Positions 4,866-15,327 of a stretch of 64,000 nt of DNA are shown here, in pieces (the stretch's first letter is position 1; each line of letters opens with the position of its first letter). The translations under genes and the position numbers were made by a program. The notes under the pieces were generated by a model that was given only the letters and a program-made list of their open reading frames with translations, did no database searches and had not been told where the DNA came from. The stretch spans positions 124,001 to 188,000 of the forward strand of contig NZ_JAPDDR010000005.1 in assembly GCF_025950095.1 (NCBI RefSeq). Direction: 5' to 3'. Source of the stretch: Luteolibacter rhizosphaerae (GTDB lineage Bacteria > Verrucomicrobiota > Verrucomicrobiia > Verrucomicrobiales > Akkermansiaceae).

Positions 4866-5387
4866 ATGGCCCGCGTTTCCATCGGTTCCCGTGTGTATTT
4901 GTCTTCGGTCGGGCTGGTCCTGGCCGCGGCGGGAGGGCTGTTTTTTGCCCTGATGTGGAGGAGCTTCCAGCGGGCCCGGGCGGTGGAACACTGGCCGGTG
5001 GTGCCTTGCATGATCCTGAGTTCCGGGGAAGAAGAGCGGCAAGTGGACCCGAACAGCGGGGTGGAGCGCCGTTTCGCGGTTCTCTTCGGTTACGAATGGA
5101 AGGGGCAGCCGTATGAAAGCGATCTGGTGCGGCTGCGGGGCAGCGGCTGGAGCAGCAAGGAGGACGTGGTGGAGGCCTACGTGGCGAAGTATCCCGAGGG
5201 CTCGCGGCAGGAGTGCCATGTGAACCCGGAGGACCCGGGGAAGGCGGTGCTGGAGAAGGAATCGAAGGCACCGGGCTACTCCCTGTGGTTTCCCGGGATC
5301 TTCGTGGTCGGTGGTTTGGGTATGGTGGTGGGAGCCTGGCGGAATTACTCGGCCAAGGAATCCAAGTCTCGCCAGGCCTCGACTTGA
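4866..5387 (+). CDS. DUF3592 membrane protein
   Basis: A 173-residue protein with a hydrophobic segment near each end (about residues 10-30 and 140-158) and an extracytoplasmic middle. The middle has the DUF3592 signature: W-P-V-x-P-C-x-I-L near residue 45, a Y-x-W/Y-x-G strand pair, then KYPEGSRQECHVNPEDP near 110-126. Function of DUF3592 proteins is unknown. Its last 43 bp overlap tail-to-tail with the end of the opposite-strand type A gene at 5345, so the two genes share a convergent end without a separate terminator. Confidence 0.85.
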   Translation: MARVSIGSRVYLSSVGLVLAAAGGLFFALMWRSFQRARAVEHWPVVPCMILSSGEEERQVDPNSGVERRFAVLFGYEWKGQPYESDLVRLRGSGWSSKEDVVEAYVAKYPEGSRQECHVNPEDPGKAVLEKESKAPGYSLWFPGIFVVGGLGMVVGAWRNYSAKESKSRQAST

Positions 5388-6598
5388 GCTGGGGTCCAGT
5401 CGCTCATGTCCGGCGCTTGGGAGAGGCCGGATTCCTTCCAAGCATCGTAGCTGGCGACGATGAGCTTGGCCTGATCCGCCGGGGGGCGGGTGGCGATCCA
5501 TTGCATGGTCCCGGTGCTGTTCTTCAGGATGCCGCCTTGGGCGATCGCGGCGATGCCTTTCGTTCCCTCCTCTTGGGCGTCGAGCCAAGCGGCGGCCTCG
5601 ACCGGCGAGATGGCGGCCCATTCCCGAGCAAGGGTGTAGATCTGGGACTGACGTCCGATGCCGGTGAGGTTCGTAAGGAGTGCGGCGGCGGCCTCCTCCC
5701 GATCGCCGGACGGGGTCTTGCTCCAATCCTTGGCCTTGGCGGCGAAGGCGCTGAAGTTGTCGCTCATCAGAAGATTCGCGTGAGGGGATTTGGAGAAGCC
5801 CACGGGATCCAATTCCTTCCAACGTTCGAGCAGAGACCAGGCGATCATCTGGTCCCCCTGAACGATGCCAGGCTTTAGTTGGTCGAGTCCTTTGCAGGCT
5901 TGCAGGGCTTGCTGGACCTTTTCCACAGAGTCGATCTGCTCGACCAGCTTGTAGTCGGAAGTGCTCCAGCCGCCGGATCGGTTGCGGAGATCGAGGGCGA
6001 GGTCGGGTCTTTCCTTGAGGAGCCAGCCGCTGGCTTGGCTGAGCTCCGAGTAGTCGAGAAAGGGGATATCGCTTGCAGCGGCCTTGCGGTCTTGCGCGAT
6101 CTCGTCGGACATGTCCTTGCGCGGTGAATCGAGAGTCCAGAGGTAAAAGCCCTGCGGGTCATTCCATGCCCAGCTCGGACCGATTTCGCGGAAGGCGGCG
6201 TACCACATGCCTTGCTTGTAGAACTTGGCCCAGCCCCAACGCATTGCGGCCTCACCATCGGCCTCGGCCCAGCGGATGAGGAGGGTGCGACAGGCGAGCG
6301 TGAGTCCGTTACTATCGGTGAGCGGGATGCCCTCCAAGGCGGCTTCGATCTCAGCGGCAGGGATCTTGCCGAGGCGGATGGCGGCTTCGATGCGAGCTTC
6401 GTCGCTCCCGGCTGAAGCGATGGCTGCTAGAGCGGAGGACAAGCTTGCCTCCGTCCATTGTTCGCGCGCGGCGATCGGGGGCGGAGTAGCCACCGTGACC
6501 TGGGTGCGGCTGCTGGATCTGATGAGAGCTGGCCAGACGAGTGCTCCGGCGGCAGCGCCACAGAAGAAGATCGAAAGCGTGCGGATGCCGGGCTTCAT
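5345..6598 (-). CDS. Type A partner protein A3: membrane-anchored helical-repeat protein
   Basis: A 417-residue protein with no family I recognise. Residues about 8-25 form an N-terminal signal anchor (SIFFCGAAAGALVWPAL), so the rest is predicted extracytoplasmic. The body is helical and contains repeated tryptophan-rich elements: LLIRWAEADGEAAMRWGW near 110, SWAWNDPQGFYLWTL near 140, REWAAISPVEAAAWLDAQ near 325. It is homologous to A1 (10032-11288), including the C-terminal W-x(5)-Q-x-E/Q-AWxD motif. Its ATG overlaps, as ATGA, the stop of the type B fragment at 6595, exactly as A1 and A2 overlap their type B genes. Its own sigma partner has lost its N-terminal two thirds or more, so A3 may be an orphan. 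Likely role: sensor or modulator partner of the sigma fusion; inference. Confidence 0.85.
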   Translation of the reverse strand: MKPGIRTLSIFFCGAAAGALVWPALIRSSSRTQVTVATPPPIAAREQWTEASLSSALAAIASAGSDEARIEAAIRLGKIPAAEIEAALEGIPLTDSNGLTLACRTLLIRWAEADGEAAMRWGWAKFYKQGMWYAAFREIGPSWAWNDPQGFYLWTLDSPRKDMSDEIAQDRKAAASDIPFLDYSELSQASGWLLKERPDLALDLRNRSGGWSTSDYKLVEQIDSVEKVQQALQACKGLDQLKPGIVQGDQMIAWSLLERWKELDPVGFSKSPHANLLMSDNFSAFAAKAKDWSKTPSGDREEAAAALLTNLTGIGRQSQIYTLAREWAAISPVEAAAWLDAQEEGTKGIAAIAQGGILKNSTGTMQWIATRPPADQAKLIVASYDAWKESGLSQAPDMSDWTPAQVEAWRDLDSLAE

Positions 6599-7035
6599 GG
6601 GCTCTCTCCCTCGATGAGGTTACGGAACTCCGCGGCCAGATCCTGAGGAAGCCGCGGGTGGGACAGGCTGGCGATGGCCGCATCGCGGTCATTGCCTAGC
6701 ATGCGGAGGAATGCGCCTCGGCAGATGCTGCCCCGCAATTCGGGATCGACGATCCGGGAGGCCCGGAGAATTCCGATAAGCTCGAAGCGCTCGTCTCCGA
6801 CCTTGCCATTGATGCTGACATCGCGGCGGGCCCTCGCGGCGAGCAAGGGATCGAGGTCGATCTGCTCCTGTTGCCGGTGGAGCCAGTCCATCAGTTCGTG
6901 GTGGTCGAGGATGCCGACAAGAACTCCACCCATCGATTGCAGGATCTCTTCTCGGGACAGTCCTGCATCAAGTCCGGCTTGCATGGCGGCGGCTTCGCGC
7001 CCGACGAGCGCTCGCCGGGCGGCAAATCCTTCCAC
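6595..7035 (-). pseudogene. B3' remnant: C-terminal fragment of a third ECF-sigma fusion gene
   Basis: Open frame of 146 codons from a GTG at 7035. From about residue 14 it matches the C-terminal ~130 residues of the type B proteins: AAAMQAGLDAGLSREEIL aligns with the same segment of B2 (DAMTAGLEAGLSRSEIL) and B1 (EVIQAGLAAGLTETEAV), and the end LPQDLAAEFRNLI aligns with LPEDLKAEFTRII. The sigma regions and membrane helix are absent. The upstream DNA instead encodes type A sequence in another frame. The fragment keeps the ATGA overlap with A3. I read it as the 3' remainder of a deleted sigma gene; whether it is translated is unknown. Confidence 0.8.
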
Positions 7036-7898
7036 CCATCGGCGGTGATGACTTGATGGGGCGGCTCGCTATCCGGTGCCTCCTCCAGCAGGCCGGCATG
7101 AGGCGAACGTGCAAAGTCATCCGGGTCGAGCTTCTGCCAGCGCTTGAGCAGCTGGCGCACGAGGTCACCGTCGTCGTTCTTTTTGATCTCCACCTTCTGA
7201 AAAGCCAGCAGGGCTTCGCGGATGCCTTCCGGTGAATCGATATTCATGGCCAGGTTGTCGTGGCTCCATTGGCTGCCTTTCGCGACCATCAGGTTGTAGG
7301 CCAGACCCGGCTCTTCCTTGACCAGTGCCCGGGTCGCCTTGTCGATGTCGCCGGATTCAAGCTTCGGCGCACCGGTGCGCAACGCTTCTTCCAGCGACAG
7401 GCTGTCAGAACCGGGCTTGTATCCTTTCATTTGTTCCAGGGTCCATGCGCAGAGCCCGGCAGGATCGTGCCAAGCCCATGAGGCGGCGATCTCCTTGAAT
7501 GCGTAGCTCCAGAGTCCCTCTCCGCGCAGTTGCATCCAGGACCATTGGGCCGCCGCGGCGCCGTCCATCGATGCCCATTGGATCAAGAGCATCTTGCCCG
7601 CGCGCGTGAGCTCCCTCCCTTCAAAAAGCGGCACGGAGTCGAAGGCAGCGGGGAATGCCTCGATCGGTAGATCGGCAAGCTGTTCCGTGGCGTGCAGGCT
7701 GGCTTGGTTCGAGGTCGCCGTGTTGATCTCGACGATGATGGCTGCGATACGCTTGGCATCCGGGGCGGGACGCGCGGATTCCACCGGCTCCTGTGCGGGA
7801 GCTTCGATCTGCCGTTGCGGCCAGAGGAGGCACCAAGTGCCGGCCGTGATCAGGCAAGACGCGGCGAAAGAGGTCAGGGAGAGGATCTTTGCATTCAT
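6891..7898 (-). pseudogene. A2': type A partner with a replaced, out-of-frame 3' end
   Basis: Open frame of 335 codons, of which about 1-297 match type A proteins: N-terminal anchor (residues ~8-25), LLIQWASMDGAAAAQWSW, SWAWHDPAGLCAWTLEQ, RWQKLDPDDFARSPHAGLL and WKDLPPGER (A1 has WKELDFPER). The last 38 codons resemble nothing in the family and are the wrong frame of type B DNA. The type A C-terminal third (AW-x-D end) is missing. The break falls near 6996-7007. The ATG overlaps the B2 stop as ATGA, so it is still coupled to an intact sigma gene and may yield a truncated partner with a foreign tail. Confidence 0.8.
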
Positions 7899-9952
7899 GG
7901 CGCGGAGGAGGAGATGATTCGGGTGAATTCAGCCTTCAGATCCTCCGGGAGATCCGGTTGCGAAAGGTATTCCCCGGCCCGTCCGGGTGACCCGGCGATC
8001 ATGAGTCGGAAGCCTGCGCGACAGAGCTTCATGCGAAGCTCGGGATCCTGAAGACGGGTGGCCCAAAGTAGCAATCCCCCTTCGGAGGGTGTCATGAAGC
8101 TCGGGGGAAAGTTGTCCCGCTGCATGCCAGAGATCTTTGCCAGCAAGATCGGGTCCGCGTCGAACTCACCGCGGTGCAGATCCAGCCACTCCAATGCGGT
8201 CTTGCCTTCTTCCTTCATGACGATGGCAATACCGATTTGTTGCAGGATCTCGCTGCGGGAGAGACCGGCTTCCAGCCCCGCCGTCATCGCATCGGCCTCG
8301 CCCTGGGCCGTATTATCCACCGTTTCGAAGCTCATGCTTTCGCCGCCGGGTGTCTGCACGCGGCTCACTTGCTTGCTGTATTTGCCGATGCGATGGAGGG
8401 TGGCCTCGAAGCGTTCGCGTGCATCCATCGCGGCAAGCATCGTCTCCACGTATTCCGGCTCGTTTTGGGCGAGGGTTTGCCATAGCTTCACCTTCAATTG
8501 CCCTGCCAAGACGGGATCCGGCAGGCGGGAGAACTCGCGATAGAGTTCGAGCAAGCGGTCTGGTCCGATGTTCATGTAGGCGCTCGCATGCACGGAGTCA
8601 CCGGTCATGGCCCTCATGCAGGCATTCACCGTTTTCTGATCCGGGAGAGTCCGGAGGTAAGCGAAGGCCTCCGCCGCGGAACGGTCCCGCAGCAGGACAT
8701 CCGAGATATCGATGGCAAAGTAGGTGCGGAGATCCCCCGAGAAGGTGGAATTCTTCATCGTCGGCTGCTCCCAATTCTCACCGAGCCAACGGGCAAGCGC
8801 GTCCAAGTCCCGGTTCCCCCAGCTATGGAGGAGGAAGCGGACCATGTCGGTGGATCCGAAACCCGGTGGCTTCAGCTCGGAATCGAACTTCAGGGCGAAG
8901 GCCGCGGCGGCACCGGGATCGCTCTCCAGCCAGCGCTTGAGGAGCGGAAGATAGCAGGCGTTCTGTTCCGCCAAGGTCAGCCGCTTGTTCGCCTCGGCGA
9001 TGAAGCCGGGGATCTCATCGAAGGTGATGCTGTCTAACAGGGCGCTCAAACGCAGCGTCGTCATCGCATGGTCAGGCCCTGCCTTGATACGCTTGATCCG
9101 GCTGATCAGGTCGATCGGCGCGGAATCTTCAACCCGGCGCAGGTCAGTGCGCGAGCCATTCCCGGCAGTTCGAGGGGCAGCTTGTCCATCGTGAGAGGAA
9201 GACCCACTACGGCTGGCGACCAAGGTGGCCGCGGCGACGAGCGAGGTGAGCAGAGCGCCGCCGATGAAAGGCCTGAGGATCGATGTGATTCCCGAGCCTG
9301 ATCCGACGGCGATGGACTCCATCGCCCGGGAAGAGATCTGCGAAATGACCGCGGGTGGCAGCGGCGCGCTGCCGAAGCCGGTCATGGTGCTGCCGAGCGC
9401 GGCGCTGCCCACGTTGACGCCGCGGAGTTTCAGCAAGCCGATGAGCCGCTCGAGGGCCCGGTCCACCCGCTTGCGGGCAGCTTCCTCCGTGGTGCCGAGC
9501 AAAGCTCCCACGTTCCGGAAATCCCGATCCTCGAAGTAGCGGAGGACGAGCGCATCCCGATCCTTGCCGGGCAGGGAGAACAGCGCGTCGTCGATTTCAT
9601 CTGCGATCGCCTGGCGTTCCCTTGAGGAGGATTCGGAAGAGTTCATAGCTTGCACGGAGACGAGTTCACGATGCTTGCGACGGGCTTCAGCGCGCCGGTG
9701 GTTTGATGCCCGGCGGCAGGCTTGGCGATAAAGCCAGCCCGGGAGTGATGCCTCATCGAGCCCCTTCGCCTTCCGCGCCAAGAGCGTGAAGACTTCCTGG
9801 GTGACGTCCTCCGCCGCAGCCCGGTCTCCTCCGAGGAGCCGCAAGGCACTACCGTGAACGAGCGCCGAATGCAGGCGCACAAGTTCCCGGAAGGCGGTCT
9901 CCGAGTGGTCGCGCTGGTATCGCTGGAGTGTGGTGCCCGGTTTCTCGCTCAT
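7895..9952 (-). CDS. Type B protein B2: ECF sigma factor fused to membrane helix and extracytoplasmic repeat domain
   Basis: A 685-residue protein. Sigma region 2 covers about residues 14-85 (AFRELVRLHSALVHG, AAEDVTQEVFTLLARKAKG). Region 4 covers about 120-180 (LFSLPGKDRDALVLRYFED, EEAARKRVDRALERL). A Gly/Ala-rich linker follows, then a hydrophobic helix at about 230-255 (IGGALLTSLVAAATLVAS), and about 430 residues of putative extracytoplasmic helices with LLKRWLESDPGAAAAFAL-type repeats. I start it at the ATG at 9952: the frame runs open to 10489, but that extension crosses the A1 gene, and 685 residues equals the length of B1. It lies 79 bp after A1 and overlaps A2' by ATGA. Probable role: envelope-responsive sigma factor. 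No separate anti-sigma gene of a known type is adjacent. Confidence 0.9.
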   Translation of the reverse strand: MSEKPGTTLQRYQRDHSETAFRELVRLHSALVHGSALRLLGGDRAAAEDVTQEVFTLLARKAKGLDEASLPGWLYRQACRRASNHRRAEARRKHRELVSVQAMNSSESSSRERQAIADEIDDALFSLPGKDRDALVLRYFEDRDFRNVGALLGTTEEAARKRVDRALERLIGLLKLRGVNVGSAALGSTMTGFGSAPLPPAVISQISSRAMESIAVGSGSGITSILRPFIGGALLTSLVAAATLVASRSGSSSHDGQAAPRTAGNGSRTDLRRVEDSAPIDLISRIKRIKAGPDHAMTTLRLSALLDSITFDEIPGFIAEANKRLTLAEQNACYLPLLKRWLESDPGAAAAFALKFDSELKPPGFGSTDMVRFLLHSWGNRDLDALARWLGENWEQPTMKNSTFSGDLRTYFAIDISDVLLRDRSAAEAFAYLRTLPDQKTVNACMRAMTGDSVHASAYMNIGPDRLLELYREFSRLPDPVLAGQLKVKLWQTLAQNEPEYVETMLAAMDARERFEATLHRIGKYSKQVSRVQTPGGESMSFETVDNTAQGEADAMTAGLEAGLSRSEILQQIGIAIVMKEEGKTALEWLDLHRGEFDADPILLAKISGMQRDNFPPSFMTPSEGGLLLWATRLQDPELRMKLCRAGFRLMIAGSPGRAGEYLSQPDLPEDLKAEFTRIISSSAP

Positions 9953-10031
9953 GTCACCATGGAAACACCGCAGGCCCGGCCCGAGCGGACAAAAAATCTG
10001 CCCTATTCCACCGGGAAGGTCGAGGAAGCCT

Positions 10032-11288
10032 TTATCCGCCACCCCCTTGCGCCAGCGCGGCCATGTCCTGCCATGCTTGCAGGCGGGATGCGCTCCAGCC
10101 GGCGGTATCCGGGCTTTGTCCCGGATGAGCGGTGGTCCATGCCTCATAGGCCTTGGCAATGCCTGCCGCCTCGTCGACCGGAGGAAGCGATTCGACCCAA
10201 TCCAAGGTTCCGTCCAGATCCCGGGGGGCGCGCAGGCCCGCCAAGGCGATGTATCCGCTTGCCGCTTCCGGCAGTTCGCGCAACCACCGTGCGGCCTCTT
10301 GCGGGGACTCGGCAGCCCAGCGAAGCGTGATGGTCGCGAGTTGTTTTTCCCGCGCCTCGCCGTCGAGCTTGGAGAGCAAGGAATTGGCCTGCGTGCTTCG
10401 CTCGGGGAAGTCGAGCTCCTTCCACCCGGCAAGCACTTGGGCCGGATCAGGTGCCAGAGTGTGGGCGTAGGAAGAATCAGCGAAGTCATCGGGATCGATC
10501 CTGCGCCAATGCTCGAGCAAGGCCTTGGTCGCGAGTTGGCTATCGCTCAGATCCTTCGCCTTCAGATTCCCGGGATCGGGCAACGCGGATAGGGCGTCGC
10601 GGATCTGGTCCGCGCTTTCAAAGCTCTCGGCGTAGCGGGGATAGAGTCCGTAGAACCCCCCGCCACGCTTCGCAATAAGGTCGTAGGCGAGGTAGGGGTC
10701 GATCTCGACCAGATGGTTGACCGCTTGGACGACAAAAAACATGTCGATGACGGGCATGGCGCTCTTCTGCGCAGCACCGGCCACCTGATGCCGCTCCATG
10801 TAACCGAGGTGCGGGCTGGCCAGGCACCAGCGGTGGAACCCATGCCCATCTTGCCAAGCCCAAGCCGCGATGATCTCGTGGTAGGCTTCGTTCCAATCGC
10901 GCTTCTCACGCAAGTGCGTCCATGCCCAGTTCATCGCCGCTTCCCCATCGCTGGAGGCCCAGCGGATCAGGAGTGTCTTGAAGGCCGGAAGCGCGGCGGC
11001 CCGCTCGTGGTTGAGAAAGGACTCCAAGACTGCCGGAATGTCCTTCACGGGGATCCGGGACAATTCCAAGGCTGCCCGGAGACGGGAGGGGTCATCCTCT
11101 GCTGCCTCAAGGGCCTTGACTCCGGAGACCACATTCTCCTGCGACCACGAGTCTTCGCGTGGCTTCTGCTCAATCTCGGGAACCTGGCTGTCGGTCGACG
11201 GCGGTCCACCGTGAAATAGATCCCATACAAGGAAGGTGACAGCGCAGCCGGTGAGGAAGATGGCGAGCGAGCGAGAGGAGGATTTCAT
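10032..11288 (-). CDS. Type A partner protein A1: membrane-anchored helical-repeat protein
   Basis: A 418-residue protein, the best-preserved partner together with A3. N-terminal signal anchor at about residues 7-26 (LAIFLTGCAVTFLVWDLF), then a polar linker and a helical extracytoplasmic body. Repeats include LLIRWASSDGEAAMNWAW, AWAWQDGHGFHRWCLAS, LEHWRRIDPDDFADSSYA and LRWAAESPQEAARWLREL, each placing Trp and an Ala-rich helix around a D/S-P pair. The C terminus ends with SASRLQAWQDMAALA. It overlaps the B1 stop by ATGA, so it is made with the sigma fusion. No zinc-anti-sigma or RskA-like motif is visible. A role as co-sensor or regulator of B1 is inferred from coupling and shared repeats. 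Confidence 0.87.
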   Translation of the reverse strand: MKSSSRSLAIFLTGCAVTFLVWDLFHGGPPSTDSQVPEIEQKPREDSWSQENVVSGVKALEAAEDDPSRLRAALELSRIPVKDIPAVLESFLNHERAAALPAFKTLLIRWASSDGEAAMNWAWTHLREKRDWNEAYHEIIAAWAWQDGHGFHRWCLASPHLGYMERHQVAGAAQKSAMPVIDMFFVVQAVNHLVEIDPYLAYDLIAKRGGGFYGLYPRYAESFESADQIRDALSALPDPGNLKAKDLSDSQLATKALLEHWRRIDPDDFADSSYAHTLAPDPAQVLAGWKELDFPERSTQANSLLSKLDGEAREKQLATITLRWAAESPQEAARWLRELPEAASGYIALAGLRAPRDLDGTLDWVESLPPVDEAAGIAKAYEAWTTAHPGQSPDTAGWSASRLQAWQDMAALAQGGGG

Positions 11289-13342
11289 GGTGCCTCCCGG
11301 AGGATAAGGTGGAACTCTGCGGCGAGATCGGAGAGGAGGTGGGACTGCGAGGGATAGGCGAGGGCAGCTTGGCGATTCACCACGAGCATCCGACGGAAGG
11401 CGGCGCGGGCCAGTTGCTGGCGCAGTGCCGGATCCGAGATGCCGGACGCGATGTCGACGGCTCTTTCCGGATCTCCGGCAGCGCGGGCTCCATCTGCAAG
11501 CATCTCATCGAGTCCCGGATGATCCCGATGTCGTTCCAGCCAAACCGCCAGATCTCCTCGGGAGAGGGCGGGGATGATCGACGAAGCGACTGATTCAACA
11601 GCTTCGGTCTCCGTTAGACCTGCCGCAAGGCCTGCTTGGATGACTTCCGCCTCCCGCAGCAGAGCACTCGGCTGGGCTTCCTCATCGATGTAGCTGGAGC
11701 CGGAGATTCCTTCGATGCGGACATGGGCACTGGGAACGGAGAGCTGCCGGGCCATGGCATGAAAGCGATCCGATGGGGACAGGGCGCCCATGAGATCGGA
11801 GAAGGTATGAGGTGCCTCCTTGGCCAAGGTGATGAGGAATCCATCGAGGGCCGGGGTGCGGACTTGTTCTTGGGAGACGCCCTGAATGGCTTTGAAAACC
11901 TCCACCTGCTCCTGAAGCGGTGCTCCCACCGGGGCCCGCCAGTAGAGATCCCCGGAGAAAACCCTCAGTGCGGTTATTCGGCTCTCATCGCTTGGCAGGG
12001 ACTTGAGATAGGCCAGCATTCCTTCCGATCCGCGGTTGCGCAGGTGATCGTGCGCAAGCGACATCGTGATCGAATCTCTCAGGGACCACTTGCTGTAAAG
12101 ATCTCCCATCGTTTTCGAGGGAACATACTGGAGTGACTCGTGATCCCAGTATCGACCGAGCCATTCGGCCATTGAGGCAGGATCGCTTGCAGACCAGTCG
12201 CCCAGCAAGGTGCCCCGGATGTTCTCGCCGAGGGAGATGTCGATATGCTTGGTGATGGTATCCCCCAGGATCGCGAAGGTGACTGCTGCTTCCCGGTCGG
12301 CTTCGGCCCAGCGGTGGATAAGGATAGGGTAGGCGGTGGTCTTCTCGGACGCGCTCAACTCCCTATTCCCGAGGACCACGAACTCCGGTATCTGTTCATT
12401 GGAGACGCGGCTCAAGATGGCCTTGAGGCGCAGGCTACCCAACTCGTGCCGCGGGCCGCTGCTGCTCCGCTTGATCTCCGCGATCACCGCTTCCAGAGAG
12501 CCGGTGGCAGGTAGGGAGGCAAAGCTATCGAAGCGACTGCTCTTGGCTTCCGCGACGGGGCGGTCGGATCTATTAGGGGGTCCATTGGGGATAGGCTTGT
12601 CCCCGAGAATCGCCTGAGTGGACCCGATCAGCAGCGAACTCAGCGCAACCCCTGAAAGGAAGGGCTTGAGCAAGGACAGCAAGGCTGTCCCTCCTGCGAG
12701 AGGCAGACCCTTGAGGGCCTGAGAGGTCACTTGGGAGATCAGAGCTTCCGGTACCACGGAGCGGCCCATCCCGCTCATGGTGGTGCCGAGAGAAGCTCCG
12801 CCTACGGCGATGCCGCGGCGCTTGAGAAGAGCGGCCAGCTTCTCAAGTGCACGCTCGATCCGCTTGCGTGCGGCGTCCTCGCTGATGCCGAGTCGGCTAC
12901 CGACCGTGCGCAGGTCGCGCTCTTCGAAATAACGGTGAAGCAGGATCTCGCGATCGCCGGTCGGGAGATCGAGAAGCGCCTCGTCCACCTCTGAGGCGAC
13001 CGACTCGCGGAGTTCTGGAATCTGGTGATCGGTCATGGCTTGGATGGAAACGAGCTCTCTCCTGCGCCGACGTTTCTCCGCCCGCATATGGTTGGCGGCG
13101 CGGCGGCAGGTCTGACGGTGCAGCCAGACCGGGAGGGGGGCGGAGTGCAGCGTGTCGGCCTTCCGTGCCAGCAAGGAAAAGACCTCCTGCATCACGTCCT
13201 CCGCTCCGGCGCGATCTCCGTTCAGCCGGCGTAGCGCGGTCGCGTAGACCAGAGGAGAGTGGAGCCTCACCAGATCGCGGAATGCCGCCTCCGAGCGGTT
13301 GCCCACGAAGAGCCGCAGGAGTTCCAGGGAATCGTCTGCCAT
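11285..13342 (-). CDS. Type B protein B1: ECF sigma factor fused to membrane helix and extracytoplasmic repeat domain
   Basis: A 685-residue protein, first gene of the sigma array. Sigma region 2 at about residues 18-85 (AFRDLVRLHSPLVYA, GAEDVMQEVFSLLARKAD) and region 4 at about 110-175 (LLDLPTGDREILLHRYFEE, EDAARKRIERALEKL) are intact. A linker (GASLGTTMSGMG) leads to a hydrophobic helix near 228-250, and then about 430 residues of helical repeats such as LIHRWAEADREAAVTFAI and GDWSASDPASMAEWLGRY. The predicted topology is sigma domains in the cytoplasm and repeats outside. Its stop overlaps A1 (ATGA). A 9-bp inverted repeat precedes it (13356-13408). Length is far above the ~180-200 residues of ordinary ECF sigma factors. 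Confidence 0.92.
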   Translation of the reverse strand: MADDSLELLRLFVGNRSEAAFRDLVRLHSPLVYATALRRLNGDRAGAEDVMQEVFSLLARKADTLHSAPLPVWLHRQTCRRAANHMRAEKRRRRRELVSIQAMTDHQIPELRESVASEVDEALLDLPTGDREILLHRYFEERDLRTVGSRLGISEDAARKRIERALEKLAALLKRRGIAVGGASLGTTMSGMGRSVVPEALISQVTSQALKGLPLAGGTALLSLLKPFLSGVALSSLLIGSTQAILGDKPIPNGPPNRSDRPVAEAKSSRFDSFASLPATGSLEAVIAEIKRSSSGPRHELGSLRLKAILSRVSNEQIPEFVVLGNRELSASEKTTAYPILIHRWAEADREAAVTFAILGDTITKHIDISLGENIRGTLLGDWSASDPASMAEWLGRYWDHESLQYVPSKTMGDLYSKWSLRDSITMSLAHDHLRNRGSEGMLAYLKSLPSDESRITALRVFSGDLYWRAPVGAPLQEQVEVFKAIQGVSQEQVRTPALDGFLITLAKEAPHTFSDLMGALSPSDRFHAMARQLSVPSAHVRIEGISGSSYIDEEAQPSALLREAEVIQAGLAAGLTETEAVESVASSIIPALSRGDLAVWLERHRDHPGLDEMLADGARAAGDPERAVDIASGISDPALRQQLARAAFRRMLVVNRQAALAYPSQSHLLSDLAAEFHLILREAP

Positions 13343-13355
13343 TATGTGAGGTAAA

Positions 13356-13408
13356 GCACCGCCGGAAGCCCGGACCGGACGGCTTTTCTAATGTTTTTTC
13401 GGCGGTGC
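13356..13408. promoter_or_regulatory. Perfect 9-bp inverted repeat upstream of the sigma array
   Basis: GCACCGCCG at 13356-13364 and its exact reverse complement CGGCGGTGC at 13400-13408 are separated by 35 bp containing an AT-rich stretch (TTTTCTAATGTTTTTT). The pair sits 14 bp upstream of the B1 start and about 50 bp upstream of the divergent EEP gene at 13461. It could be an operator, an autoregulatory site, or a leader hairpin; the spacing favours a looped or dimeric protein site over a terminator. Which of these it is cannot be told from one copy. Confidence 0.45.
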
Positions 13409-13460
13409 CGTGAGTTCTTGCCCACAATGGCGAAGTATGGAGGATGATAGGGGATTGCCG

Positions 13461-14375
13461 ATGCGAAAGTTTCTTCCGCTCATCACCATTGCTGCCGTTC
13501 TCGCCGGCTTACTACCCATCGCCGGGTGGGTCGCCGGGAGTTTCTGGTTCGCCGATCTCTTCAATCACTTCCAAGTCCAGTATGCTTGGTTCCTGGCGCT
13601 CTGCCTGCTGCCGCTGCTGATCGCGAAGCAGTGGAAGTCTGCGGCGCTGGCGGGAGCTCTTTTGCTCGTGCCGCTGGTGCAGCTGGCACCTTGGTTTGTG
13701 GGAGCTACGGAGATAGCGGGCGGCACCGGGTCCATCCGGCTGTGTTCTTTCAATGTGTTGGCATCGAATGGCCGCTTTGCAGACACGATCGCTTGGGTGA
13801 GGGAGAGCTCTCCGGACGCCGTCTTCTTCACCGAGGTGAATGACAATTGGTCGGATGAGCTCAAGGCGCTGGAGGACGAGTATCCGCACTGGATCAATGA
13901 AGGGCCGGACTTCGCGTTCTTCTCGAAGCTACCGATCCTGTCGAGATCCGCGGACAGGGTGAGTTCCCACAGCTATCCGATCCTGCGGGTGAGGCTGGAG
14001 ACGGCGGGTGGTCCGGTCACCTACATCGCCGGACATCCCTTGCCGCCGGTTACGGAGCACTGGGCGCGCTCCATGGACATCTTCATGGCGGAGACGGCGA
14101 AGTATGTGGAAGCCGAGCCGGGAAGGGTGGTGGTCGCAGGGGATTTCAATTCGAGCCGCTGGAGCTTCAAGTCGCAGCCCTTGGTAAAAGCAGGATTAAT
14201 CGAGGCGGCCAAAGGCAGGTCGCCGGGCCCGACCTGGAAGCGGTTGAACCCGATCTTCGGAATCCCGATCGATCGCATGCTCTATCGGGGTGCGGGATTC
14301 GGCTGCCGTAGTTTCGAGATCGGACCGGATCTCGGCTCGGATCACAGGCCGGTGACGGGGGTGTTTATTTGGTGA
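13461..14375 (+). CDS. Endonuclease/exonuclease/phosphatase (EEP) family membrane protein, copy 1
   Basis: A 304-residue protein. Two or three hydrophobic segments occupy residues about 5-85, followed by an EEP-fold hydrolase domain: CSFNVLASNGRFADTI, FFTEVN with the metal-binding Glu, VVAGDFNSS with the D-x-N pair, and the C-terminal GSDHRPV with the catalytic His. The start at ATG 13461 is preceded by AGGGGA six bases upstream; a longer frame from 13410 adds residues without similarity to copy 2. Members of this fold cleave phosphodiesters or phosphomonoesters; the substrate here is unknown. It is followed after 7 bp by a paralogue (14383), and is divergent from the sigma array. Confidence 0.88.
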   Translation: MRKFLPLITIAAVLAGLLPIAGWVAGSFWFADLFNHFQVQYAWFLALCLLPLLIAKQWKSAALAGALLLVPLVQLAPWFVGATEIAGGTGSIRLCSFNVLASNGRFADTIAWVRESSPDAVFFTEVNDNWSDELKALEDEYPHWINEGPDFAFFSKLPILSRSADRVSSHSYPILRVRLETAGGPVTYIAGHPLPPVTEHWARSMDIFMAETAKYVEAEPGRVVVAGDFNSSRWSFKSQPLVKAGLIEAAKGRSPGPTWKRLNPIFGIPIDRMLYRGAGFGCRSFEIGPDLGSDHRPVTGVFIW

Positions 14376-14382
14376 CAGAGTC

Positions 14383-15327
14383 ATGAAGTGGCGAAGCTTT
14401 CTCCTGCCAAAACCGAAGGCGCTCGTCCTGCGCCTGGCGGTGCTCGGGAGCCTTTTGCCTATCCTCGGATGGTGCGGTGGCAGTTACTGGCTGCTCGATC
14501 TCTTCAATCACTTTCAGTGGCAGTATGCCGGTCTGTTAGGAATCGCAGTGATCGCGCTGCTGCTCATGAGACAATGGCGGTTTGCTGCAGTGGCCGGGAT
14601 TCTATTGTGCATCCCACTCCTTCGCATTCACTTGGGAACCCGCAGCGTTCCGCAGAAGCCTTCACCGGGGTCACCCATGAAGTTCACCTGCTTCAACGTG
14701 CTAACCGCTAACCAAGGTTATGAAGACGTGGTGCGATGGATCCGCGAAACAGATCCGGATGTAATCTTTCTGCCGGAGGTGGATGAAGTCTGGGCAGGAA
14801 AACTCAGGCCCTTGTTAGAGTCCCATCCCCATGCCGTGGAGCACCCGGTGGAAGGGAACTTCGGCTTCGCATGCTACTCCAAGCTGCCGATCTTGCAGCG
14901 GGAGATCATTCCCTGCGGGGCGATGGAGCTGCCGCTCTTGAAGATCCGGGTGCAGGGAGAGAGCGGTTCTTTTGTCTTCCTCGGGGCGCATCCGGTGCCG
15001 CCGGCCAACGAGTTCTGGGCCGGAGAGCGGGACGAGTTCCTCCGGATCATTGCGGCCGAGATGAATGAAGAGAAGGGCCTGGTGATCGTCGCGGGTGATC
15101 TGAATGCGACGCCGTGGAGCTACGGGGTGAAGCCGCTTCGTGATGCCGGATTGAGAGGCTGGGAGGCAGTGCCGACTTGGTCGCGGAGCAATCCTCTGCT
15201 CGCCGTGCCGATCGATCATCTGCTCTACCGTGCCGGTAATGCGGGGCCGATCGAGGATCAGGGTTTCATTGTAGGGCCGGACTTGGGTTCGGACCATCGT
15301 CCGGTGACCCGGATGATCGCGTGGTAA
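14383..15327 (+). CDS. Endonuclease/exonuclease/phosphatase (EEP) family membrane protein, copy 2
   Basis: A 314-residue tandem paralogue of the preceding gene with the same plan: N-terminal membrane segments (SYWLLDLFNHFQWQYAGLL matches SFWFADLFNHFQVQYAWFL of copy 1), then the EEP domain with FTCFNVLTANQGYEDVV, FLPEVDEVW, IVAGDLNATPWS and GSDHRPVTR. All metal-binding and catalytic positions expected for the fold are present. The 7-bp gap indicates co-transcription. The domain should lie outside or at the membrane face, judged by the odd number of helices, which is uncertain. It ends 12 bp before the convergent purN. Confidence 0.88.
   Translation: MKWRSFLLPKPKALVLRLAVLGSLLPILGWCGGSYWLLDLFNHFQWQYAGLLGIAVIALLLMRQWRFAAVAGILLCIPLLRIHLGTRSVPQKPSPGSPMKFTCFNVLTANQGYEDVVRWIRETDPDVIFLPEVDEVWAGKLRPLLESHPHAVEHPVEGNFGFACYSKLPILQREIIPCGAMELPLLKIRVQGESGSFVFLGAHPVPPANEFWAGERDEFLRIIAAEMNEEKGLVIVAGDLNATPWSYGVKPLRDAGLRGWEAVPTWSRSNPLLAVPIDHLLYRAGNAGPIEDQGFIVGPDLGSDHRPVTRMIAW

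Follow-up and report, generated by a model that had tools for sequence, protein, structure and literature searches.

How is a sigma factor controlled when it forms one polypeptide with a predicted membrane helix and a large outer domain, and what is the role of the anchored protein encoded directly behind it? The question is raised by an array of genes on the reverse strand of a stretch of 64,000 nucleotides from Luteolibacter rhizosphaerae (contig NZ_JAPDDR010000005.1, positions 124,001 to 188,000), hereafter the window. The genes are of two types: B encodes an extracytoplasmic function (ECF) sigma factor continued by a linker, one hydrophobic helix and a long alpha-solenoid, and A encodes an N-terminally anchored solenoid. 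Our computational analysis favours, with moderate confidence, a reading in which B is a one-piece receptor and sigma factor, A is its homologous co-receptor or guard, and the sigma domain is released by proteolysis. The arrangement suggests an undescribed route by which outside signals would pass directly to the transcription machinery, and no publication on it was found in the open-licence literature, searched by title and the start of the abstract.

Architecture of the B proteins

The two complete B genes, B1 and B2, encode 685 residues each (open reading frames, ORFs, 13342-11285 and 9952-7895). Their sigma regions 2 and 4 score above curated cut-offs, with PF04542, PF04545 and PF08281 in Pfam and TIGR02937 in NCBIfam. 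Both lengths and both sigma regions had been claimed in the original prediction, which was made from the letters alone. In a model of B1 with a predicted local distance difference test score (pLDDT) of 66, built on an alignment of only three sequences, residues 2-96 superpose on SigW with Z 13.6 and a root-mean-square deviation (rmsd) of 2.5 over 93 aligned residues. Residues 1-177 superpose on sigmaE with a large rmsd (13.7), which would fit a different placement of the two sigma domains. A sequence search of the PDB matched B in its sigma part only and A not at all.

Behind the sigma domain lies an Ala-rich, charge-poor linker of about 50 residues, which recurs across the tail classes of the 143 sigma-transmembrane (sigma-TM) ORFs analysed. 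At the model column just before the helix, Lys makes up 56% of 119 residues. Hydropathy gives a single hydrophobic segment at about residues 215-247 of B1 and B2, where one helix near 230-255 had been proposed. This segment is weak in B1 (1.38), and the positive-inside rule is not obeyed by B in simple charge counts around the helix: Lys plus Arg in the 15-residue flanks come to 1.02 on the sigma side vs 1.63 on the other, with no positive-inside bias, and acidic residues to 0.01 vs 1.54, so that they are nearly missing from the sigma side. The modest hydropathy and the lack of bias would both suit a segment that does not span the membrane and a solenoid with a regulatory role in the cytoplasm, as with the TPR extension of ECF42. 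We consider this very improbable, given that a hydrophobic window of at least 1.3 occupies the same place in 88 of the 89 solenoid-tailed B proteins of the survey described below, and that the homologous A solenoids come after N-terminal anchors, of which four look lipoprotein-like by eye.

No zinc-finger, WD40 or TPR model was found in the Pfam scan of B1 and B2, and no FecR model among their Pfam matches to E 1. Neither B1 and B2 nor the scanned A proteins contain a recognisable anti-sigma domain. Conserved cysteines are missing from the linker; in those listed columns where Cys ranks in the top three residues, its share is at most 9% (column 180; 143 sequences), and no Cys stands at an invariant or nearly invariant column of the 11 paralogues of the genome. 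Control should therefore come from the tether, the linker or the outside.

The solenoids themselves belong to no recognised family, as had been said of the repeat domains at the outset: Pfam and NCBIfam gave nothing above cut-off on A1-A3 or on the B1 and B2 tails, and in the paralogues scanned neither tails nor solenoid partners had a Pfam match above cut-off. A model of A1 (pLDDT 72, four sequences) has an N-terminal helix followed by an all-helical solenoid. With VIA-align the best match of the B tail has Z 8.5 and rmsd 15, and that of A has Z 9.7 and rmsd 16. The matches are generic (HEAT, TPR, PPR and aminopeptidase-N type), and Foldseek on A gave nothing below E 0.001 and generic solenoids only. 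Because these Z scores lie within the range common for repeats, no specific fold relative is claimed.

Survey of the family

Family members were collected with a profile of the sigma and linker parts of the 11 paralogues. In 18 genomes of the genus it gave between 1 and 28 matches per genome at E<=1e-20, of which the weakest are ordinary ECF sigmas of short length, and between 0 and 24 at E<=1e-45. From this list 80 further regions of the genus were fetched. Left out before their neighbours were seen were a match at a contig edge (G012:C248), the fragmented G004 contigs C577, C15, C65 and C12, partial matches with E 1e-34 to 1e-39 (G004:C544, C55 and G005:C51) and ordinary ECF sigmas near E 1e-22. 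Another 40 regions from other genera were picked by hand to span families, likewise with the neighbours not yet seen. Three fetched regions (L186, L200, L204) hold no complete sigma ORF. Tails long enough for clustering were present in 140 of the 143 ORFs; single linkage at E<=1e-6 placed 89 in the solenoid class, 19 in a class here called solo, nine in another cluster and the rest in small groups. The genome of the window has 11 sigma-TM proteins: B1, B2, four more with solenoid tails (three followed by an anchored or lipoprotein-like partner with a 4-bp overlap), four with a different tail and no partner, and one that is nearly tail-less.

An anchored partner was counted where the downstream ORF has an N-terminal hydrophobic or lipobox-like leader; those accepted span 274-636 residues. 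Such a gene lies directly downstream on the same strand of 74 of the 89 solenoid-tailed B genes, compared with one of the 19 solo genes (L189, with an unusual leader; p 1.2e-10). By the rule used, 15 of the 89 have no partner; two of these (L193, L198) reach contig ends, and a third (L252) has an anchored ORF at a gap of 75 bp, beyond the limit. Nine of the 89 were first reached via A matches, all nine also being in the sigma-profile lists, and excluding them leaves a partner in 65 of 80.

In the window all three stop/start junctions (B1/A1, B2/A2 and B3 remnant/A3) read ATGA. Across the survey, a 4-bp overlap with the stop of B is present in 43 of the 74 partners (ATGA in 40), vs 37 of 263 other codirectional neighbours called in the fetched regions (Fisher p 1.6e-13). 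In this comparison the choice of starts favours overlaps of 1 and 4 bp, and a control neighbour was counted whenever any in-frame start gave 4 bp. Within the genus there are 61 B, 50 with a partner and 30 with the overlap; elsewhere in the order, in other genera and families, the figures are 24, 20 and 11. When A was clustered at 50% identity, 39 of 66 groups had the overlap. Solenoid-tailed B and pairs number 9 and 9 in genome G009, 13 and 10 in G015, and 6 and 5 in G000.

Conserved B-A pairing in many loci, which the original prediction named as support, is present well beyond the window: the order has paired B in three of its families (f1, f2 and, by way of L133, f3), and a full pair is present in a metagenome-assembled genome of the Verrucomicrobiaceae (L038). 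A phylum search with a 12-row B profile gave matches at E<=1e-50 in 25 of 288 genomes, those reaching beyond query position 480 being limited to the family of the window; the top four candidates per genome were scored, and phylum-wide absence therefore does not follow. From the listed matches outside that family, 13 loci were fetched by match extent or frame length, two of them (L277, L278) belonging to f4, a family within the order. Four of the 13 have tails akin to the solenoids. Two loci of family f9, in the same class outside the order (L267, L268), have a motif-bearing anchored partner at gaps of 4 and 12 bp (proteins of 821/587 and 850/581 residues). The neighbour flagged at L277 is without the motif, and L278 is without a partner.

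The A partner and its kinship with the B tail

The best hydrophobic window of the partner begins within 12 residues of its start in 74 of 74, which leaves no room in A for a cytoplasmic anti-sigma domain; a 19-residue window of at least 1.3 is present at the N terminus in 70 of the 74. By eye, the leader ends of four partners (L027, L195 twice, L197) are lipoprotein-like, and the solenoid therefore looks exported there. A count of the lipobox pattern (6 of 74 partners) was dropped, since four have the Cys inside the hydrophobic helix, A1 among them, and two L195 leaders were missed; the lipobox status of A1 is ambiguous. Anchored A-like proteins with weak A-profile matches were also seen at eight loci that hold no sigma ORF in the fetched stretch of 4.5-9 kb (L131, L132, L135, L137, L139, L142, L143 and L144).

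Judged by sequence similarity, A and the B tail are homologous. In a search of tails against partners, 67 of the 74 partners matched at E<=1e-3, with a best E of 1.7e-35. Both share a repeat grammar around Trp (Asp at +4, Pro at +5, Ala at +8, Trp at +11), with positions enriched about 2 to 7-fold at near-identical frequencies in tails and partners. The motif W-x(2,4)-[DS]-P-x2-A occurs 100 times in the 89 B tails vs a shuffled mean of 2.7, 73 times in the 74 partners vs 2.2, and not once in solo tails, which bears out the similar W-x(3)-D/S-P-x(2)-A repeats first noted in the window. The idea that A is a recent local copy of its own B tail was rejected: just 2 of the 74 A proteins match their own tail best, and the median rank of that tail is 28.5 of 89. 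A single clean split between tails and partners was not obtained either, as the FastTree result, from a repeat alignment of poor quality, had nine label changes and no clean bipartition.

Inheritance of the pairs and the damaged third copy

Two tandem pairs in G009 are orthologous to those of the window, with identities of 66/69% for B2/A2 and 55/58% for B1/A1, in reversed order. A mirror-tree comparison of tail and partner distances gave r 0.82, reached by none of 1000 permutations, and a partial r of 0.65 remained with the sigma distances removed. The B-A pairs are inherited as units.

These results bear on a different view of A, according to which it is co-transcribed with B and does not regulate it, both genes being products of a growing family of solenoids (for example surface proteins that bind glycans or proteins) and the own tail alone regulating the sigma. 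The 15 B genes without a partner would fit, as would the solo class, which manages without A, and the eight loci with an A-like anchored protein but no sigma ORF. We think it rather improbable, for pairing tracks the tail class, the distances of tail and partner correlate beyond those of the sigma part, and pairs have been kept together through the rearrangement that separates the window from G009.

The original prediction described type A genes of 417-418 residues after B1 and B2, and the same 4-bp ATGA overlap at three B/A junctions. These lengths are right for A1 (418) and A3 (417), each with an N-terminal hydrophobic anchor, and ATGA is present at all three junctions. The A after B2 has 335 residues, and the third B (ORF 7035-6595) is only a C-terminal piece of about 130, so that two B genes are intact. 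The array thus consists of two B-A pairs, the second with a truncated A, and a surviving A3 behind a B remnant. A2 is homologous to A1 and A3 only up to residue ~301-309, its orthologue in G009 has 419 residues, and homology to B2 from residue 552 on begins at ~6996 in a frame other than that of A2. Since the one homology stops where the other begins in another frame, a single deletion has joined the first part of A2 to the last part of B3, damaging both. Its size, estimated from the lengths of intact copies, is ~2 kb (~118 codons of A2 and ~550 of B3).

Proposed proteolytic release and its alternatives

Support for release came from the nearly tail-less paralogue, which has sigma, helix and about 75-93 further residues. 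The next gene encodes a tail-specific protease of the Prc type (Peptidase_S41, TSP_NTD and DUF3340) in three of three genomes (G000, G015, G004). At least one TSP_NTD protein is present in 18 of 18 genomes of the genus, with two in G000, two in G015 and three in G004. A 305-residue frame on G004:C65 might be another tail-less member. An M50 protease (484-residue frame) is present in G000. Regulated intramembrane proteolysis is favoured because the tail-less paralogue adjoins a Prc gene and because IutY of Pseudomonas putida needs Prc and RseP; proteolytic release as in IutY is suggested by this analogy. The tether-and-release idea had been put forward from the window alone, and the extra Prc gene together with the IutY precedent lends it independent support.

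In the reading we favour, a single helix would anchor the ECF sigma domain to the inner face of the cytoplasmic membrane, and the alpha-solenoid would lie outside. A, a sigma-less relative of the B ectodomain often made from an overlapping start codon, would be anchored beside B and most likely binds its solenoid as co-receptor or guard, acting mainly as a negative regulator. The outer complex of A and the B tail would hide a site-1 cut, leaving the sigma tethered and inactive while there is no signal. A ligand or envelope stress acting on the ectodomains would expose B to a periplasmic site-1 protease of the Prc type, and an RseP-type site-2 protease would then free the sigma domain to bind core RNA polymerase.

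Besides the flank charges, the partnerless B genes and the A-like loci with no sigma ORF, several further observations weigh against this reading. The linker has a pLDDT of about 30 in the B1 model, and an inhibitory contact is not discernible there. The 74 partners include the window's own damaged A2. Prc linkage was seen at the tail-less paralogue and not at B-A pairs, and the extra Prc copies of G008 and G009 and the third of G004 are near no listed sigma match. M50 proteases occur in 14 of 14 controls and are near universal. Among the genes around the window operon, read by eye, there is no hint of a regulon.

The same data invite an explanation in which the sigma works while tethered, a ligand bound by the B-A ectodomains altering the oligomeric state or the conformation of the linker so that the sigma could load onto core from the membrane, with no proteolysis, and A being an obligate co-activator. 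The recurrence of the Ala-rich linker across tail classes agrees with it, no protease gene is conspicuous beside the B-A pairs of the genome (gene lists by eye), and the C-terminal extensions of ECF42 are needed for activity (PMC8999054). It is unlikely in our judgement, given the link of the tail-less paralogue to Prc in all three genomes and the activation by proteolysis of the characterised sigma-TM hybrid IutY (PMC5411451).

The expansion in copy number, with ectodomains that diverge, suggests many ligands. A wider proposal, which we put forward tentatively and at somewhat less than even chances, is that Verrucomicrobiota have a family in which the sigma is itself a transmembrane receptor. 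There would be no anti-sigma anywhere and tethering would silence; control of each receptor would lie with a translationally coupled homologue of its ectodomain, without a sigma part, which would pair with it outside the membrane; and the family, expanded with diverging ectodomains (nine pairs in G009, ten in G015), would be a sigma-based counterpart of two-component systems.

Comparison with known systems

In the RseA-RseB and MucA-MucB systems, RseB guards the anti-sigma, is soluble and is not known to be homologous to RseA. The proposed role of A is similar, a periplasmic guard against site-1 cleavage made with its membrane regulator; unlike RseB, A is anchored and homologous to the B ectodomain. 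SigI/RsgI systems consist of two proteins, a sigma and a sensor that is the anti-sigma, and form sets whose copy number goes with many ligands, whereas in B sensor and sigma are one protein. Arrays of SigI/RsgI in cellulolytic clostridia comprise many paralogous sigma systems per genome and are linked to polysaccharide degradation (PMC6056542). This source and the two cited below were available as excerpts, to which the statements taken from them are limited.

The closest likeness is to IutY, a sigma/anti-sigma hybrid of 374 residues assigned to ECF243 (PMC5411451, PMC8999054) and the only ECF to date experimentally characterised as activated by proteolysis of its own extension (PMC8999054). 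As is predicted for B, IutY joins an N-terminal ECF sigma, a single TM helix and a domain in the periplasm within one polypeptide. Prc and RseP process IutY; Prc is needed when the periplasmic part exceeds about 50 residues, and variants with periplasmic residues are RseP-dependent (PMC5411451). In our family it is the tail-less B paralogue that adjoins a Prc homologue. IutY differs in its periplasmic anti-sigma domain and in having the outer-membrane receptor IutA as signal source, and is called unique in the excerpt (PMC5411451), whereas B has a solenoid tail with no FecR match, a homologous sigma-less partner and several paralogues per genome. No TonB-type receptor gene is apparent among the window neighbours of B, read by eye only.

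ECF48, ECF52 and ECF53 of Actinobacteria (e.g. SCO4117) have extensions of up to ~400 residues with one or two TM helices, and proteolysis has been proposed for them (PMC8999054). Theirs carry a zinc finger, likely a zinc-binding anti-sigma (ZAS) domain, and SCO4117 a carbohydrate-binding domain, whereas B has another ectodomain and no recognisable zinc finger; the excerpt mentions no coupled partner gene for them (PMC8999054). Like B, ECF57 (WD40-type) and ECF42 (TPR) have a repeat-type C-terminal extension, thought to act by protein interaction (PMC8999054). Their repeats are WD40 or TPR, with no membrane helix described in the excerpt (PMC8999054), whereas neither Pfam nor NCBIfam has a model that matches those of B. 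The pair of conserved Cys that joins regions 2 and 4 in ECF57 has no counterpart among the invariant or nearly invariant columns of the 11 paralogues.

The B-A family resembles IutY and ECF48/52/53 while lacking the domains that define them. It differs from them in the solenoid ectodomain, the lack of a recognisable anti-sigma domain and the homologous, often translationally coupled partner; the sigma part may already be included in a published numbered ECF group (Casas-Pastor 2021). Set against the single characterised case of IutY, the survey provides 89 solenoid-tailed examples from one order, 74 with a homologous partner, and two pairs outside it. The family makes two ideas testable, namely that tethering alone silences a sigma and that a receptor is regulated by a truncated copy of its own ectodomain, and the tail-less paralogue with its own Prc gene is a small system for proving the release step. 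For annotation, many genes labelled 'sigma-70 family' and their unnamed neighbours would gain a role.

Other tail classes

The solo class (L024, L028, L029, L031 and 15 further ORFs) has a Trp-poor helical tail of about 250-310 residues after position 255 and no partner gene, apart from the one doubtful exception given above. An 'LTxxQ' (Spy/CpxP-like) label for these tails was discarded as a likeness by eye only, with no Pfam support in the four scanned. Distinct tails are also found at L207, L211, L215, L232 (another tail cluster), L272 and L279, where the sigma-TM gene has a 4-bp overlap with a lipoprotein-like or anchored gene. The coupled-partner layout is thus not limited to solenoid tails or to this order.

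Features of the window and neighbouring genes

The coordinates of the array are given in table 1, together with those of the tail-less paralogues.

Table 1. Features of the B-A array (window positions) and of the tail-less paralogues with their protease genes (positions within the named loci)
Feature	Position	Strand	Remark
B1: ECF sigma factor (residues ~20-170), linker rich in Ala, a single hydrophobic helix, alpha-solenoid of ~430 residues	11285..13342	(-)	685 residues
B1 predicted membrane helix, residues 215-233	12644..12700	(-)	best 19-residue hydropathy window
A1: N-anchored solenoid partner, 418 residues	10032..11288	(-)	ATGA overlap with B1
A1 predicted N-terminal anchor, residues 3-21	11226..11282	(-)	internal LTGC is a possible lipobox
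B2: second sigma-TM-solenoid protein, 685 residues	7895..9952	(-)	MSEKPG start at 9952; mechanical ORF from 10489
B2 predicted membrane helix, residues 229-247	9212..9268	(-)	hydropathy
A2: truncated A, 335 residues	6891..7898	(-)	A homology to ~residue 301, out-of-frame sequence after; ATGA overlap with B2
Approximate deletion scar, A2 / B3 remnant	6990..7010	(-)	A2 homology ends ~6995, B homology from ~6996
B3 remnant: last ~130 residues of a B solenoid, lacking the sigma domain	6595..7035	(-)	matches B2 552-685, B1 558-681
A3: intact N-anchored partner, 417 residues	5345..6598	(-)	ATGA overlap with B3 remnant
Intergenic region between B1 and divergent gene, inverted repeat GCACCGCCG / CGGCGGTGC	13343..13409	(-)	candidate regulatory hairpin, operator or attenuator
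Tail-less sigma-TM gene and extra Prc gene	L025:4877-8132, L168:2290-5740, L173:2442-5831		gap 76-141 nt with the selected starts

Divergent from the B-A operon are two tandem related ORFs, 13410-14375 and 14383-15327, of 321 and 314 residues. By eye, both resemble membrane-anchored proteins of the endonuclease/exonuclease/phosphatase family.

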